Notes under the pieces: model-generated
Seen by the model: only the letters and a program-made list of their open reading frames with translations
Databases searched by the model: none
What the model was told of the DNA's origin: nothing
NCBI RefSeq assembly: GCF_014698845.1
Contig: NZ_JACJTV010000017.1
Location: 1-64,000 of the forward strand
Source: Coleofasciculus sp. FACHB-1120
Lineage (GTDB): Bacteria; Cyanobacteriota; Cyanobacteriia; Cyanobacteriales; FACHB-T130
Length of the DNA: 64,000 nucleotides
Direction of reading: 5' to 3'
Translations under genes and position numbers: made by a program
In this document: positions 3,255 to 46,733 of the stretch, piece after piece
Layout of the letters: every line of letters begins with the position of its first letter
Numbering within the stretch: the stretch's first letter is position 1

Positions 3255-3583
3255 TTGCACTTTGCATCCGCTTGCTTCGTTCTTCAATGCCTGGAATGCT
3301 GCTTACAGGTTGAATCAGATCAACTTCGCCATTGATCATTGACAGGTTCGGAATGACCTGCCATCTCCACGCTGACTGGCTTTTGAGTATCGATGCTGCT
3401 CGCTCGATCGGCGCGAATTACGGTTTCAACCACAAAGGCTGTTGTCATCGAGCAGGGTGAGACTATCTGCCGATTGACTCACCTGTTCGCTTTGTTTGCT
3501 CTTTGTTCGCTTTATTCGCGCTTGGTGCTGTAGACAACACCACTCAAGGGGGCGGATACTTCTGAGTTAGAACTGTACAGCTC

Positions 3584-18036: not shown

Positions 18037-18870
18037 ATGGGCACCACTCTAGGCACACTTTTAGTTTTCTTTTTCGTTCTAGCAGCTTCTGGACTTAAAC
18101 TAGACCGAGAATACGAACGCGGCGTCATCTTTCGACTGGGTAGAACAAAGGGCGTTATGGGGCCGGGGATGTATTGGATTATTCCCTGGATCGATCAGAA
18201 AATGCAGATCGATGTCCGCACCAAAACGGTGAATATTGAACCCCAAGAAACTGTTACGGCGGACAGCGTGACGATTAAAGTGAATGCTGTTCTTTATTAC
18301 CGAATTCTTGACCCCTCAAAGGCTATTAATCGGGTTGAAGATTACAATATGGCGGTTTACCAAATCGCTTTGACAACTTTACGCAATGTGGTAGGTCAAA
18401 ATATCCTGGATGATGTCTTACAAAGCCGGGATAAAATTAACACCAAAGTCCAAGAAATTGTCGATGAAATCACAGAACCTTGGGGGATTGTGATTGAACG
18501 GGTGGAAATGAAAGACGTAGAAATTCCCCTGGCGATGCAGCGGGCCATGGCAAAAGAAGCGGAAGCAATTCGAGAAAAACGAGCCAGACTCATTAAAGCG
18601 GCGGCGGAACAGGAAGCCTCGATTAAGTTAGCAGAAGCTTCGCAAATGATTATGAAGAACCCTGCTGTATTGGAGTTGCGGCGTCTACAAATGCTGACAG
18701 AAATTGGTGCGGAAAATAACACGACGACGGTGATTATGATGCCGTCTGATATCATTCAAGCAGCAAAGAATTTGACCACTGGAATCTCGAATGGCAATCA
18801 AGCCGAGGTACGTCCTTTTCAACCAGAGGTAATTTTCACCGAGAAGCCAGTTCCGGATGACGCCCTCTAA
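18037..18870 (+). CDS. SPFH/stomatin-like (slipin) membrane protein
   Basis: A bacterial stomatin homologue that should form large membrane-bound cages or rings. Residues 1-19 are an N-terminal hydrophobic anchor (GTLLVFFFVLAASGL), then the SPFH domain beginning LDREYERGVIFRLGR, with GPGMYWIIPWIDQ and the run YYRILDPSKAINRVEDYN. A helical, Glu/Ala-rich coiled coil follows (AMAKEAEAIREKRARLIKAA). The C-terminal LPS-like segment is TVIMMPSDIIQAAKNL. ATG at 18037 chosen; a TTG three codons earlier is in frame. No NfeD partner gene is adjacent, which is usual for slipin relatives; instead a 36-aa membrane ORF precedes it. The 3' end overlaps the convergent hydroxylase gene by 35 nt. Confidence 0.93.
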   Translation: MGTTLGTLLVFFFVLAASGLKLDREYERGVIFRLGRTKGVMGPGMYWIIPWIDQKMQIDVRTKTVNIEPQETVTADSVTIKVNAVLYYRILDPSKAINRVEDYNMAVYQIALTTLRNVVGQNILDDVLQSRDKINTKVQEIVDEITEPWGIVIERVEMKDVEIPLAMQRAMAKEAEAIREKRARLIKAAAEQEASIKLAEASQMIMKNPAVLELRRLQMLTEIGAENNTTTVIMMPSDIIQAAKNLTTGISNGNQAEVRPFQPEVIFTEKPVPDDAL

Positions 18871-20239
18871 GCCCTGTCATTAGCTGCAAAGCAAAGGTCT
18901 TAACGGGACGAATTCGTCGCAGCATCCATAAACCTAAGCGGCGAATTGCTACGACTGGCAACCAATTATTAGAAAACATCCGATCGAGGAAATCGGTAAA
19001 ACCTAAAATGGTCAGGTTTTCTTGTTTACGCCAGCGTTCGTAGCGTTTAAGTACCTGTATATCACCGATATCTTCCCCTAAATTATGGGCGGATTTTAAA
19101 ACTTGGGCGATCGCTGCTGCATCCCGAATCCCCAAATTCATGCCTTGTCCTGCTACCGGATGGCAACAATGGGCAGCATCGCCAATCAGGGCGAGTCGGG
19201 GAAGGGTGTAGCGATCGCTTTGCATCAATTGCACTGGGAAAACATAGCGATCGCCTTCTAGTTCCAAACGCCCCAACAGTCCAGCCGTGCGGCGTTCCAG
19301 TTCCGCCAAAAACTCTTTTTCGTCTATTTCTTTTAAAGCTTTCGCTTCTGTATGCGGGGCAGTCCAAACAACCTGACAGCGGTTCCCCGGTAGCGGCAGA
19401 ACCCCCATCGGGCCACTCGGCCAAAAGCTTTCGTAGGCGATATTCTGGTGGGGTTTTTCTGGTTTAATCGTTGCGACCACACAGGATTGCCAGTAATGCC
19501 ATCCTTGGGTGCGGATACCAGCAGCTTGGCGGATAGGCGATCGCGCCCCATCCGCTGCTACCAGCAAGCGCGTTCTAATTTTGGCTGTTTGCTTCCCCTC
19601 ATCGCCCCCACTTTTTAAGGGGGGGATCTCCGAGGTTTGAGAGGATTGAATCCCCTCATCGCCCCCACTTTTTAAGGGGGGGTTGGGGGGGATCTCCAAG
19701 GCTTGAGAAGATTGAATTTTAGAGTGGGGAATCTCCCCTCTGACGACAATTTCGATCTCTACCGCGTCAGCTTGATAGTCGGCACTCACCACTTCCGCTG
19801 GACACAACCAAGACACATTCGGGCAATCTCTCAAGCTATCCTGCAAAGCCGTCAGCAACACCCGATGTTCCGCCCCATACCCTAGCCTTTCTGTGCCTAA
19901 ATCTTGGGGAGAAAATTGTACAATGCCAGGATAATCGGCGTCAGATAAGCGAATTTGTTGAAATGCATTGATTTGAGGCAGTATTTTATCCCAAACACCC
20001 ATACCCTCGAAAATGCGCCCCGACATGAGGGAGATGGCATAAGCGCGTCCGATGGCAACAGCAGCAGACTGGGGCGATCTCTCAATTAACGCTATCCGCA
20101 GCCCAGAATCCTTTAAGGCACAAGCGAGAGTTGCCCCAATGATTCCACCGCCCACAATCGCTAAGTCGTAGTCAAAGCCTTGCTGGGCTGCCGATGTCTG
20201 CGGCGACGAAATTGTTTGAACGGTCTGTTCCAGCGCCAT
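18836..20239 (-). CDS. FAD-dependent UbiH/Coq6-family hydroxylase
   Basis: A 467-aa flavin monooxygenase of the UbiH/UbiF/Coq6 type, expected to hydroxylate an aromatic ring of a quinone or related compound. FAD motifs: Rossmann DLAIVGGGIIGATLACAL near residue 25, the DG-like motif LLVAADGARSPIRQA, and GDAAHCCHPVAGQGMN near the C-terminus. The protein is longer than usual because about 41 residues (~175-215) are encoded by two palindrome-containing repeat units that keep the frame: IQSSQALEIPPNPPLKSGG and IQSSQTSEIPPLKSGG, each followed by DEG. They lie between the substrate and FAD motifs, in what should be a surface loop. ATG at 20239 chosen over an in-frame TTG at 20248. Convergent with the SPFH gene, overlapping it by 35 nt. 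Exact substrate unknown. Confidence 0.9.
   Translation of the reverse strand: MALEQTVQTISSPQTSAAQQGFDYDLAIVGGGIIGATLACALKDSGLRIALIERSPQSAAVAIGRAYAISLMSGRIFEGMGVWDKILPQINAFQQIRLSDADYPGIVQFSPQDLGTERLGYGAEHRVLLTALQDSLRDCPNVSWLCPAEVVSADYQADAVEIEIVVRGEIPHSKIQSSQALEIPPNPPLKSGGDEGIQSSQTSEIPPLKSGGDEGKQTAKIRTRLLVAADGARSPIRQAAGIRTQGWHYWQSCVVATIKPEKPHQNIAYESFWPSGPMGVLPLPGNRCQVVWTAPHTEAKALKEIDEKEFLAELERRTAGLLGRLELEGDRYVFPVQLMQSDRYTLPRLALIGDAAHCCHPVAGQGMNLGIRDAAAIAQVLKSAHNLGEDIGDIQVLKRYERWRKQENLTILGFTDFLDRMFSNNWLPVVAIRRLGLWMLRRIRPVKTFALQLMTGLRGRHPELASR
19594..19716 (-). repeat. Two palindrome-containing repeat units inside the hydroxylase CDS
   Basis: Two tandem units, 57 nt (19594-19650) and 66 nt (19651-19716), each start TCCCCTCATCGCCCCCACTT and contain CCCCC...GGGGG arms. 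They differ mainly by a 9-nt insertion in the second. Both lengths are multiples of three, so 123 nt (41 codons) are added to the gene without a frameshift. The encoded PPLKSGGDEG is the typical translation of a widespread cyanobacterial intergenic repeat. Confidence 0.9.
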
Positions 20240-27560: not shown

Positions 27561-30017
27561 TTATTCAGCTTCGCCAATCAAAGTAAATGCCGCCCACTGC
27601 ACGGGATCTGAATATTGTTGCTGTTTCATTGTCGTCAGCATCGCATTTCGCAATGCTGTAGCTTTATCAGCGTTTTGCTGAAGATTTTTATAAAATTCCG
27701 TCATCAGAAAAGCAGTGGAGTTATCCGGGACTTGCCACAGGGAGACAACTACGCTAGGCACCCCAGCGGAAATTAAAGAACGAGATAAACCGATGACACC
27801 ATCCCCAGTGATACGTCCTCGCCCGGTGTCGCAAGCACTCAGAACCACTAATTCAGCATTCAATTTTAGATTAAGGATTTCTTCAGCCGTGAGCAACCCG
27901 TCGTCGTTGTTAGATGGAGCGAGAGCGATCGCGCTTCCCAATCCTCGGTAATCATCTAATAAACCATGAGTGGCTAGATGAATGATTCTCGCTTTAGGCA
28001 ATGCTTGCGCGATCGCTACTTTAGTCGCTTTGCTACCAGTAATCGCTTGAGTTTTGAGTAGTTTAGCAATATCTTTTGCTTCCTGTTCCGCCCACGGCAA
28101 ATTAGATAACGGTTGCGCTGATTCTCCAGGGTTCAGCACCACTTTGGGCATTGTCGGATTGCCCACTACCAATGCCCCTTGTAGAGATGCGATTGATTGC
28201 TTCTCTACACGTTGCCTTTGCTGATGGGTTAAATCCAGCACTTGAATTGAAGGAGCCGTGAGAATAGTATGTTTTTCAATCAGGTATTTGCCATTGGCAT
28301 CTTGGAGAGCTGGGAAGGGAACTAGGAATAGTTCTGTTTGAGGGATAAAAATTACACGAGCATCTGGATCATCTGGCAGCTCTTTGGCGATGGGTTCAAT
28401 TAGCAGTTGATGCAGCTGCTGTAGCCGTTTAGTCGGGTTTGCTTCCTCTATTAGCGCTACTTGAATGCCACCCCGTCCCCTTACGCCCATAGATTGGCGG
28501 GTGTTGACAACAAGGTTTTTTAGAGAAAAATTCTCTTTTTGCCACAAGGGTTTGAGGTCGCTGCGACGAAATGCCACTTCACCTGTGGGTTTGATAATCC
28601 AAATATAAAGTTCTGATTCCTTGGTTTGTTGTTTACCTTGAACTTTGAAGTAATCGTAAATAATCGAATATTGAACGAGGGTGGAATTTTGAGTTTTGGC
28701 AATTTGTTGAATCTGTGAAATCGTCGGTTGTAGATACTTTGCCGGTAACGTCTCTACATTCGGGGATAATCGCCTCGATAGCAACTCCACAAACGCCCGT
28801 GCCCGACCTCGCTCGGCAATTTCCAGCGCTGCATCAGTTTTATTCTGAGCAATGAGGACTTGTTGTAAAGTACGGTAGGTGCGAGCTTGTTCCTCGAAAA
28901 TTGAAACTTTATTGGCATCATCGCTGCTTAATCTTTCTCGGAGAGATTCCAAAACTTCAATTCCATCAATTAGAGTTTTCTCTGCTACCGCGAGATTGCC
29001 AGATTTGTAGAGAGTAACTCCTAGATTGTTCAGAGCCAGCCCCTCACCTTGGCGGTCTTTAATCTCCCGCGCGATCGCCAACAACTGCTGTGTGTACTCA
29101 ATTGCCCGTGGAAAGTCCCCCAGAGCAAAGTAAGCTCCTCCCAGATTTCCCAGAGCTTTCCCCTCACTTTGGCGGTCTTTAATCTCCCGTGCGATCCTCA
29201 ACCACTGCTGTTGGTACTCAATCGCCTTGGCATAGTCCCTTAGGGAATCGTAAGCAAGTCCCAGATTTCCCAGAGCTGCTCCTTCGCTTTGGCGGTCTTT
29301 AATCTCCCGTGCAATCGTCAACCACTGCTGTTGGTACTCAATCGCCTTGGCATAGTCCCCCAGGGAACGATAAGCAAGTCCCAGAATTCCCAGAGCTGCT
29401 CCCTCGCCTTTACGGTCTTTAATCTCCCGCGCGATCGCCAACAACTGCTGTGTGTACTCAATTGCCCGTGGAAAGTCCCCCAGAGCAAAGTAAGCTCCTC
29501 CCAGATTTCCCAGAGCTGCTCCCTCGCCTTTACGGTCTTTAATCTCCCGCTCGATCGCCAACGACTGCTGTGTGTACTCAATCGCCTTGGCATAGTCTCC
29601 CAGGGAACGGTAAGCAAGCCCCAGATTTCCCAAAGCCTTCCCCTCACTTTGACGGTCTTTAATCTCCCGCGCGATCGCCAACCACTGCTGGGAGTACTCA
29701 ATCGCCTTGGCATAGTCGCCTAGGGAATAGTAAGCAACGCCCAGATTTCCCAGAGCCTTCCCCTCATTTTGGCGGTCTTTAATCTCTCGATAGATAATCA
29801 GTGCCTGTTGCCAAGACTGTAATGCCGCCTCAAATTGACTGGTTTGATGCTGCTGAATCCCTTGGTCTAGCAGTCGGTCGGCTTCCGCTTTCCGGTCAGC
29901 TTGGGTTTGAGCTAATACCCGTGGCGTTCTTAGTGCTGGAAAATTGGTAGCCAAAGGCGTCGAGACAGTGGCAACAAGAGTGATGAAGGCGATTAGGCTG
30001 ATTCTACGAGAATGCAT
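27561..30017 (-). CDS. Secreted TPR-CHAT protease
   Basis: An 818-aa protein with an N-terminal signal peptide (RRISLIAFITLVATVSTPLA). An array of about eight 40-residue TPRs follows (~45-375); repeats share GNLGLAYRSLGDYAKAIEY and LAIAREIKDRQ. Then a linker and the C-terminal CHAT domain (~520-818) with dyad H684 (HLATHG) and C729 (LSACDTG), ending QWAAFTLIGEAE. TPR-CHAT proteins are caspase-like proteases in which the TPRs bind the activator or substrate (HetF in heterocyst-forming species, the Csx29/gRAMP-associated TPR-CHAT protein in type III-E CRISPR). The repeats are nearly identical at DNA level, a sign of recent expansion. A CHAT-only paralogue lies 68 nt upstream on the same strand. 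Confidence 0.93.
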   Translation of the reverse strand: MHSRRISLIAFITLVATVSTPLATNFPALRTPRVLAQTQADRKAEADRLLDQGIQQHQTSQFEAALQSWQQALIIYREIKDRQNEGKALGNLGVAYYSLGDYAKAIEYSQQWLAIAREIKDRQSEGKALGNLGLAYRSLGDYAKAIEYTQQSLAIEREIKDRKGEGAALGNLGGAYFALGDFPRAIEYTQQLLAIAREIKDRKGEGAALGILGLAYRSLGDYAKAIEYQQQWLTIAREIKDRQSEGAALGNLGLAYDSLRDYAKAIEYQQQWLRIAREIKDRQSEGKALGNLGGAYFALGDFPRAIEYTQQLLAIAREIKDRQGEGLALNNLGVTLYKSGNLAVAEKTLIDGIEVLESLRERLSSDDANKVSIFEEQARTYRTLQQVLIAQNKTDAALEIAERGRARAFVELLSRRLSPNVETLPAKYLQPTISQIQQIAKTQNSTLVQYSIIYDYFKVQGKQQTKESELYIWIIKPTGEVAFRRSDLKPLWQKENFSLKNLVVNTRQSMGVRGRGGIQVALIEEANPTKRLQQLHQLLIEPIAKELPDDPDARVIFIPQTELFLVPFPALQDANGKYLIEKHTILTAPSIQVLDLTHQQRQRVEKQSIASLQGALVVGNPTMPKVVLNPGESAQPLSNLPWAEQEAKDIAKLLKTQAITGSKATKVAIAQALPKARIIHLATHGLLDDYRGLGSAIALAPSNNDDGLLTAEEILNLKLNAELVVLSACDTGRGRITGDGVIGLSRSLISAGVPSVVVSLWQVPDNSTAFLMTEFYKNLQQNADKATALRNAMLTTMKQQQYSDPVQWAAFTLIGEAE
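29051..29770 (-). repeat. 120-nt TPR-coding tandem repeat array
   Basis: Six units of exactly 120 nt, marked by CGGTCTTTAATCTC at 29053, 29173, 29293, 29413, 29533, 29653 and again at 29773 (start of a more divergent unit). The units are close in DNA sequence. The block at about 29053-29157 and the block at about 29413-29517 are identical over roughly 105 nt although three units apart, which suggests unequal recombination or gene conversion. Confidence 0.9.
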
Positions 30018-43772: not shown

Positions 43773-46733
43773 ATGCGCCCTCAACTCGGAATCTTCGCGC
43801 TTATCGCCTTCCTAGCTACCATTTCAGCGCCTTTGAACTTTAGTTCGTCATTTTCCACAACCCAGGTGTTGGCGCAAACTTCAGCTTCTGCTTTGCGAGA
43901 AGCTGAACGCCTTTTAGAGCAAGGCATTCAGCAGATTGATAACCGTCAATTTGACAAAGCCTTTCAGTCGTTGCAACAGGCATTGACGAGTTATCGAGAA
44001 CTCAAAGACCGTCAGGGAGAGGGAACCGCTTTAGCAAACCTGGCAAACGTTTACTATTCGCTGCAAGCCTACGCGAAATCGATTGAGTTGCACCAACAAA
44101 GTTTAGCGATCGCGCGGGAGATTGCCGATCGTACCTTAGAAGCGAAGAATCTCAGACACTTGGGAAGTGCGTACTCGGCGCTGGGACAACATCCTCAAGC
44201 AATTGAGTATCTGCAACAAAGTTTAGCTGTTGCACGGGAAATTAAAAATACTAAAAGTGAAGCTGCTGCTCTTGGTATGTTGGCTCTTGCTCACCAACGA
44301 GTAGGAGACTATCAGAAAGCGATTGATTCTTGGCAGCAAGCACTCCCTATTTTTCAGCAACTCAAAGAACGTAGGGCTGAAGGAGCTGCTCTCACATCTA
44401 TTGGAAGTTACTATCAGTTGCTGGAAAATTACCCTGAAGCTCGAAAGTTCTTCCAACAAGGTTTAGTCGTTGCCCAAGAACTGAAAGATCGCTCTAGCCA
44501 ACAGATAATTCTTGCACTTCTGGGTCATGTTCATGAATCCCTCGCTGAATACTCCCAATCTATTGATAAATATCAACAAAGTTTAGTTATGGCGCGGGAA
44601 ATGGGGGAATCCGCTATTGAAGTAGAAATTTTGAATAATTTGGCTGGGATTTATGCCAATCTATCAAGATATCAGGAGGCAATTGAATATTACCAGCAAA
44701 GCTTAACCATTGCCAAGAAAATTAACGCTCGCCAATCAGAAGCGGGTATTCTGTCTAATTTAGGCACTGTATATAAAAATTTGAATGATTCTCCCCAAGC
44801 CATTCGCTATTATCAACAGAGCTTGGCAATTACCGATGAACCCAATAATCAACAAAGTGCCTTGGAAGTTCGAGAAAAACGGAAGTTATATGCCCAAACA
44901 ATCCTAAACTTAGGAAACATTTATCAAGAAATGGGCACAACCGAGAAAGCAAAAGAATTTTACCAAGAAAGCTTGAAAATTGCCCAAGAAATCAACGACC
45001 GAGATTTGCAAGCAGATATATTAAACTTTTGGGGAATTCTCTCCTATCAAAATCTGGGAGACTACCGACAAGCCAGTGAATACTATCAACAAAGCTTAGC
45101 CTTAGCCAAACAAAATAATAATAAACGCGGGGAAGCAAAAGCGATAGGCAATTTGGGACTCGTTTATGATTCTATGGGTGACTACAATAAAGCGATTAAT
45201 TACTTCCAGCAGGATCTCGCACTTTCTCGCGAACTTAAAAATAAACGCGGGGAAGCCATCGCCTTAAACAATTTAGGGCTAACTTTTATGCATTCTGGTA
45301 AGCTAACAGAAGCCGAAACATATTTAAAAAATGGAATTGAGGTATTAGAATCTGTCCGAGCTGGATTAGGTAGAAATGATGCTAGTAAAGTATCACTTTT
45401 TGAAGATCAAGCAAACACTTATCGCAATTTACAACAAGTTTTAATTGCCCAAAATAAAATAGAAGCCGCTTTGGAAATCTCTGAACGAGGGAGAGCAAGA
45501 GCCTTCGTTGAGTTATTAGCTTCACGGTTATCTGAATCATCCGTTCAACCTACACTTACCTCACCGAATATCAACAAAATTAAAGAAATCGCCAAACTTC
45601 AGAACTCCACCCTGGTTGAATATTCTATTGTCTACGAAGACCAAAATGCTGAAGGGAAAAAAACACAATCCCAAACATCTGAAATCTATATTTGGGTAGT
45701 GAAACCAACAGGCGAAATTGCCTTTCGTAAAGTCAATCTTAAAGCTTTGCGGCAGCAAAAAAAGAGTTCTCTAGAAGAGCTTGTTGTCAGCAGCCGCGAA
45801 TCGATTGGTGTTAGAGGTCGTGGTTTAGCTGTAGAGGCTAAAGTTAGTGGAAGTCAAGAAAAACAAGGTTTTAAGGAACTTCACGAACTACTCATTAAAC
45901 CAATTTCTGACCTCCTCCCAAAAGACCTAAATGCTCGGATTATCTTTATTCCACAAAGCGAACTGTTTCTAGTTCCTTTCCCAGCATTGCAAGATGCTTC
46001 TGGCAAATACTTAATCGAACAACATACTATCCTCACGGCACCTTCAATTCAGGTACTGGATTTAACAAGTCAGCAACAACAGCTTGTAGGAACGCGAAGT
46101 TCTACTTCTGTACAAAATCAAGATGTGCTGATAGTTGGAAATCCTACAATGCCGAGTGTTCCTGCCAAAATTGGCGATCCGCCGACTCAGTTATCTAGCT
46201 TACCGGGTGCGGAACGAGAAGCTTTAGCGATCGCGCCTCTGTTTAAGACTAAAGCTTTCACCGGCTCTCAGGCAACGAAAGCAGCGATTCTGCAACAAAT
46301 ACCCACAGCACGAATCATTCATCTCGCGACTCATGGCTTACTAGATGATATTCGAGGATTGGGAAGTGCGATCGCATTGGCTCCATCTGGCAACGATAAC
46401 GGCTTACTCACCGCTGAAGAAATTCTAGACTTGAGATTCAATGCCGAATTAGTAGTCCTGAGTGCTTGCGACACAGGTAGAGGCAGAATCACTGGCGATG
46501 GCGTGATCGGCTTATCTCGCAGCTTAATGAGCGCGGGTGTACCCAGTGTAATTGTGTCTCTCTGGCAAGTGCCAGACGCTCCTACAGCCTCATTGATGAC
46601 AGAATTTTATCAAAATCTTCAAAAAACACCCGATAAAGCCGCCGCCCTGCGGAGTGCCATGCTAAGCACCATGAAGCAACATCCAGATCCTAAAGACTGG
46701 GGGGCATTCACTTTAATTGGAGAAGCCGAATAA
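43773..46733 (+). CDS. Secreted TPR-CHAT protease
   Basis: A 986-aa protein with signal peptide (GIFALIAFLATISAPLNF), about ten to eleven 40-residue TPRs (~45-560) and a C-terminal CHAT domain. The predicted dyad is H854 (HLATHG) and C899 (LSACDTG), 45 residues apart as in the 818-aa protein; the domain ends DWGAFTLIGEAE. Unlike the 818-aa protein, its TPRs have diverged, so they are older. It is a paralogue of the two proteins at 27-31 kb but lies on the other strand, 12 kb away. ATG at 43773. Confidence 0.93.
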   Translation: MRPQLGIFALIAFLATISAPLNFSSSFSTTQVLAQTSASALREAERLLEQGIQQIDNRQFDKAFQSLQQALTSYRELKDRQGEGTALANLANVYYSLQAYAKSIELHQQSLAIAREIADRTLEAKNLRHLGSAYSALGQHPQAIEYLQQSLAVAREIKNTKSEAAALGMLALAHQRVGDYQKAIDSWQQALPIFQQLKERRAEGAALTSIGSYYQLLENYPEARKFFQQGLVVAQELKDRSSQQIILALLGHVHESLAEYSQSIDKYQQSLVMAREMGESAIEVEILNNLAGIYANLSRYQEAIEYYQQSLTIAKKINARQSEAGILSNLGTVYKNLNDSPQAIRYYQQSLAITDEPNNQQSALEVREKRKLYAQTILNLGNIYQEMGTTEKAKEFYQESLKIAQEINDRDLQADILNFWGILSYQNLGDYRQASEYYQQSLALAKQNNNKRGEAKAIGNLGLVYDSMGDYNKAINYFQQDLALSRELKNKRGEAIALNNLGLTFMHSGKLTEAETYLKNGIEVLESVRAGLGRNDASKVSLFEDQANTYRNLQQVLIAQNKIEAALEISERGRARAFVELLASRLSESSVQPTLTSPNINKIKEIAKLQNSTLVEYSIVYEDQNAEGKKTQSQTSEIYIWVVKPTGEIAFRKVNLKALRQQKKSSLEELVVSSRESIGVRGRGLAVEAKVSGSQEKQGFKELHELLIKPISDLLPKDLNARIIFIPQSELFLVPFPALQDASGKYLIEQHTILTAPSIQVLDLTSQQQQLVGTRSSTSVQNQDVLIVGNPTMPSVPAKIGDPPTQLSSLPGAEREALAIAPLFKTKAFTGSQATKAAILQQIPTARIIHLATHGLLDDIRGLGSAIALAPSGNDNGLLTAEEILDLRFNAELVVLSACDTGRGRITGDGVIGLSRSLMSAGVPSVIVSLWQVPDAPTASLMTEFYQNLQKTPDKAAALRSAMLSTMKQHPDPKDWGAFTLIGEAE

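Follow-up and report, generated by a model that had tools for sequence, protein, structure and literature searches.

How a conserved cyanobacterial gene came to carry two palindromic repeat units within its coding sequence, and what kept its reading frame open, is the question raised by a FAD-dependent hydroxylase gene of Coleofasciculus sp. FACHB-1120. Short palindromic repeats that lie between genes and also in frame within unrelated conserved genes are known from Rickettsia as Rickettsia palindromic elements (RPEs) (PMC10969869, PMC3733652). According to a review, such in-frame capture happens unusually often in Rickettsia, while its occurrence in other prokaryotes is put forward only as a conjecture (PMC10969869). 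The locus was analysed in a window of 64,000 nucleotides, which is the whole stretch of DNA considered here, together with the 6.2-Mb genome to which it belongs and the genomes of relatives.

Two in-frame repeat units in a hydroxylase gene

The gene lies at 18839-20239 on the minus strand and is an uninterrupted ORF with an ATG start and 467 codons, the stop not counted. Its product is a PRK07364/NF005612 FAD-dependent hydroxylase (full-length NCBIfam match, E 2e-197, over the curated cut-off), which is also matched by the UbiH/UbiF/VisC/COQ6 family and has UbiI (4k22) and UbiH (7mwa) as its nearest solved structures. The closest 80 relatives of the gene were all cyanobacterial records (80 of 80).

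The initial annotation had described in-frame units of 57 and 66 nt adding 41 residues between conserved FAD motifs at 19594-19716; this description was correct apart from the position, which is one base off and should read 19595-19717. There, two units are arranged head to tail in frame (66 + 57 nt, together 41 codons in 123 nt), with the GxGxxG motif on one side and the DG motif on the other, and are read as IQSSQALEIPPNPPLKSGGDEG followed by IQSSQTSEIPPLKSGGDEG. The first unit (66 nt, 19652-19717, minus strand) contains the core GATCCCCCCCAACCCCCCCTTAAAAAGTGGGGG (33 nt, 19662-19694, minus strand), with runs of C7, C7 and GTG5, and the second unit (57 nt, 19595-19651, minus strand) contains the shortened core GATCCCCCCCTTAAAAAGTGGGGG (24 nt, 19605-19628, minus strand). 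The units abut without a gap, share the core and, upstream of it, 23 nt of flank, and differ by three substitutions in 57 aligned bases and one 9-nt gap. The gap is a contraction between the two C7 runs (CCCCCCCAACCCCCCC to CCCCCCC), which is an ordinary slippage-type change. Single-strand folds of the units were no better than those of shuffled sequences (z -0.8 to -1.7), and a special hairpin stability was not found. The loop peptide SGGDEGIQSSQTSEIPPLK has tryptic cut sites on both sides.

The repeat belongs to a dispersed family

Since the two units are the only good copies of the core in the 64-kb window, the proposal that their palindrome belongs to a dispersed repeat had to lean on a genome search. 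When one mismatch was allowed, CCCCCTTNNNAAGNGGGG gave 56 + 51 = 107 strand matches in the 6.2-Mb genome versus 4 + 0 for the reversed control, and this count, which had been suggested as a check, bears the proposal out. The core has the consensus GATC-C6/7-(A/T)A-C6/7-TTNNNAA-G6/7. Related genomes gave 41 (sister species), 154 (another genus of the family) and 583 (a genome of another family) strand matches, and 244 copies of the repeat were counted in a genome of another family versus none in the control. Approximately 43 loci of the FACHB-1120 genome hold a good copy, ca. 30 of them outside long ORFs, as judged from the DNA stretches around the copies. Weak pattern matches in L174, L180 (position 3375), L181 (position 4193) and L182 looked like chance and were left out of the count.

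Some features of the family were seen in passing. The core also occurs between genes as part of a larger element with TACCGTGTACACACA ends (L005, L014, L016, L017, L019 and L020 of the same genome), which has a second, oppositely placed palindrome ca. 33 nt away and looks like a many-copy MITE. Runs of seven C or G seemed commoner in the in-gene than in the intergenic copies of this genome, an impression from small numbers. In the window itself, arrays with a 120-nt period (40 codons) at 29013-29912 and 44070-44992 probably encode tandem protein repeats of the TPR kind.

The pair of units is best read as a local duplication

The initial annotation implied two insertions, and comparison with other genomes did not bear this out. 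In the sister genome G001, the only other genome of the genus compared, the orthologue (L103; 98% identical protein) carries exactly one unit at the same place. This unit is of the 66-nt form, with the same structure as the first unit including the AA between the two C runs, the same 23-nt flank and substitutions of its own in the core; the 57-nt unit, shorter by 9 nt between the two C7 runs, has no counterpart in the sister. The second unit is therefore best read as a local tandem duplication. The shared 23-nt flank leads to the same reading, since the part shared genome-wide is only the core of ca. 31 nt.

The core is missing from a further three genomes of the family, of which two show a 38-residue base segment at this place and one a short, different extension. 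Alignment with orthologues lacking the insert, another check suggested at the outset, showed the bare 38-residue base segment in many of them. The hydroxylase copy did not provide a sharp empty site, the flanks of the nearest core-less genomes being different too. The simplest history that these sequences suggest would be one old insertion before the species split, a tandem duplication in the FACHB-1120 lineage and the loss of AACCCCCCC between two C7 runs in one of the copies. A change from one unit to two is the direction that we infer, although the loss of a unit in the sister would be equally parsimonious when judged from a single sister genome.

A recent insertion with an empty site in a GH38 gene

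A GH38 mannosidase-like gene of the same genome (L015, contig C31 near position 3340) is 105 nt (35 codons) longer than its counterpart in the sister genome (L213). The surplus consists of a 94-nt element holding the core and an 11-bp direct repeat, CGTCCTTACCC, which is present once in the sister, where the empty site is intact. The first 25 nt of the element were found elsewhere in the sister genome with 96% identity, the matches of the element elsewhere cover mainly the core of ca. 31 nt that is common to most other copies (shared core, 30-33 nt), and the ends of the insert are partly complementary as judged by eye. By this comparison, the GH38 copy is a clean, recent in-frame insertion, the 11-bp target duplication marking a transposition-like event. 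Among the copies, including that of the hydroxylase gene, the target duplication is demonstrated for the GH38 copy alone; the hydroxylase copy presumably arrived by the same route.

In-frame copies in other genes and the constraint on them

Ten of the ca. 43 loci lie in frame deep within long ORFs and are read as PPLPPLKKGG-like peptides. They are in the genes for the FAD hydroxylase, a RluA-family pseudouridine synthase, PhnE, SMC, CobN, the GH38 mannosidase-like protein, an ABC ATPase and three NRPSs, the calls for the NRPSs being based on ORF continuity only. L162 (HpsB) and L178 (porin) were left out of this number, because their repeat is close to the N-terminus and the position of the real start codon is in doubt. 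In addition, a decayed copy is present in the leucyl-tRNA synthetase (LeuRS) gene. When seven of these genes (RluA, PhnE, SMC, CobN, GH38, ABC ATPase and LeuRS) were aligned with orthologues from the sister and from other genera, conserved sequence resumed on both sides of the insert. The in-frame copies in about nine further genes of this genome thus represent a genome-wide, RPE-like behaviour in cyanobacteria.

Similar cases were found in other genomes. PhnE of G002 has a tandem duplication of the unit inside the gene, and in G006, which belongs to another family, 2 of ca. 10 sampled loci were in frame inside long ORFs, one of them holding a series of units. Among the cases seen, amplification inside a gene went furthest in an ATPase-like ORF of 492 amino acids in G006 (L251), with several tandem in-frame units (NPPNPPLSRGGEEIQPPYPRRGEEIQPLSPPLSKGG).

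The insert residues were compared with the rest of the proteins between FACHB-1120 and the sister. In the seven genes, with insert borders partly set by hand, pN/pS was 0.62 for the inserts (57 nonsynonymous and 31 synonymous differences) versus 0.16 for the rest (258 and 489; Fisher P = 8e-8). That the frame is kept while the residues appear hardly constrained fits a tolerated loop. The initial annotation had seen in the 9-nt difference a sign of selection for an open frame after insertion. The gap is real and the frame is kept; the open frame itself is better described as survivorship because frame-breaking events in a needed gene go unseen, and the inserted residues are weakly constrained.

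The insert is predicted to form a disordered loop

An AlphaFold2 model built with 62 sequences had a mean pLDDT of 84 and a pTM of 0.85, with a confident core fold. Residues 172-212 (19604-19726, minus strand) were predicted to be disordered (pLDDT <50) between strands 160-167 and 216-228. Modelling the protein to see whether the insert is a surface loop had been suggested as a check, and such a loop is what is predicted. Between the same two matched stretches, the chain of UbiI has 15 residues and the hydroxylase has 66. The model thus predicts that the insert is a disordered hairpin loop compatible with the protein fold.

This loop also accommodates other sequences. Among the 62 orthologues, inserts of more than 8 residues are confined to the loop after residues 164-168, where at least 10 sequences have them; outside it there are only short N-terminal variations and an 8-residue insert after residue 116. 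The latter (GKMPVPK type) is a second fixed site, occupied in 13 of the 62 orthologues (L026, L041, L075, L080, L084 and others), and is possibly repeat-derived. The hydroxylase orthologues of G004 and G036 have a sequence of CCAAAATC heptamers in the same loop, and a pair of these heptamers gave 149 matches in G004 and 269 in G036 (controls, 0 and 3), and 22 in the FACHB-1120 genome (control, 3). In G004, heptamer-type NPKSKI peptides also stand at the loops of PhnE, SMC and LeuRS that hold the palindrome in FACHB-1120 (L211, L207 and L195 versus L010, L012 and L175). In further orthologues the hydroxylase loop contains an ATTACC-type tandem sequence (L024), other palindromes (L025 and L038) or G/C-rich inserts (L040, L108 and L110).

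Palindrome-like loop inserts of G051/G025 and G007 were also considered as dispersed repeats. The patterns tried did not support this, and these are claimed only as G/C-rich inserts: in G051 the copy scan returned the insert itself as the sole exact match, plus two matches with 2 mismatches; in G025 it returned no match, and in G007 just the insert itself. Taken over the hydroxylase, PhnE, SMC and LeuRS, we lean slightly towards the view that cyanobacterial repeat families unrelated to one another share some protein loops as landing sites.

Weighing the possible origins of the insert

The reading that we favour, with a probability of roughly 85%, is that a small, non-autonomous mobile repeat inserted once in frame, was locally duplicated and is tolerated as a translated loop. 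The repeat would have inserted, in frame, in the hairpin loop of the hydroxylase in an ancestor common to the two species of the genus. A tandem duplication of the unit would have followed in the FACHB-1120 lineage, and one copy would have lost 9 nt from between its C7 runs. Translation would turn the insert into a flexible loop rich in Pro and Gly and tolerated by the enzyme, with selection removing frame-breaking changes and barely acting on the residues. In about nine other genes of the genome the in-frame copies would have arisen by the same process, at least one of them recently and with an 11-bp target duplication.

Two units that are three substitutions and a 9-nt gap apart could also stem from two separate, adjacent insertions of the repeat. 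This origin is improbable given that the units share a 23-nt flank besides the core and follow each other directly, head to tail, that the single unit of the sister has the same flank, and that the part shared across the genome is only the core of ca. 31 nt. We consider it just as improbable that the loop was domesticated and is retained for a function, for example that of a binding or regulatory linker. The insert is older than the split of the two species and was later enlarged, and its pN/pS of 0.62 is below 1, as such a role would have it; however, its residues evolve much more quickly than those of the remaining protein, many orthologues do with the 38-residue base segment and no insert, and the segment is predicted to be disordered.

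The length and sequence of the loop vary across cyanobacteria, and local drift and slippage in a variable loop might have made the C/G runs without any mobile element. A core that matches a family of ca. 43 loci in the same genome, with a near-zero control, makes this highly improbable. An assembly or sequencing artefact is the least probable of all, although the segment is repetitive and rich in homopolymers: the 123 nt stay open, the substitutions are not the same in the two units, and one unit with substitutions of its own occupies this place in an independent genome. The insert, for which an artefact had been named at the outset as a refuting case, thus stands as real. The single insertion with local duplication accordingly remains our preferred history.

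Relation to known repeats and implications

The resemblance to RPEs proposed in the initial annotation held in part. Like RPEs, the cyanobacterial repeat is found in frame in unrelated, otherwise conserved genes (ten loci, with seven other genes aligned), which are intact, and its insert is compatible with the protein fold, being a low-confidence loop in the model. Unlike RPEs, which are ca. 150 bp long and were described from Rickettsia, it has a core of 30-33 nt made of C, C and G runs in units of 57 and 66 nt, its host is a cyanobacterium, and tandem multiplication takes place within the gene. On these comparisons, the repeat works like RPEs while standing outside the RPE family by size and host.

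Other known repeats share some of its features. It resembles MITEs in the 11-bp target duplication of the GH38 copy and in the larger elements with TACCGTGTACACACA-type ends that hold other copies of the core; no clear terminal inverted repeats were seen in the core itself. The SDRs of Nostoc and relatives (Elhai et al. 2008) are likewise very small mobile cyanobacterial repeats, a likeness drawn from their description; in the passages of PMC4390886 concerned, SDR5 is cited as inserting precisely within HIP1 sites. An intrastrand triplex motif that is G/C-rich and abundant in Microcystis, Anabaena and Nostoc has been linked to local genome instability in E. coli (PMC4666352, 2015), and the passages of that paper on the motif concern mainly intergenic change in E. 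coli and do not mention in-frame gene copies. The repeat described here is similarly G/C-rich, and the runs C7, C7 and GTG5 of the first unit could supply hairpin arms and a third run, although the energy of the simple hairpin did not exceed that of shuffled sequences. Triplex-type instability could lie behind the tandem duplications, including those in PhnE of G002 and in G006.

A search of the literature on in-frame palindromes in cyanobacteria found nothing on point, which is weak evidence of novelty as most subscription journals lay outside the search. The present case is a free-living cyanobacterium with in-frame palindrome capture in about ten genes, including the essential-looking SMC and leucyl-tRNA synthetase. 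PPLKKGG-type stretches in cyanobacterial proteins should be annotated with caution, as they are repeat-derived. A datable recent event with its empty site makes it testable which loops accept repeats, how fast the repeats decay and whether any function is gained. If the loops are indeed shared landing sites, mobile repeats of several kinds would, throughout the phylum, be adding length to the same proteins at identical positions.
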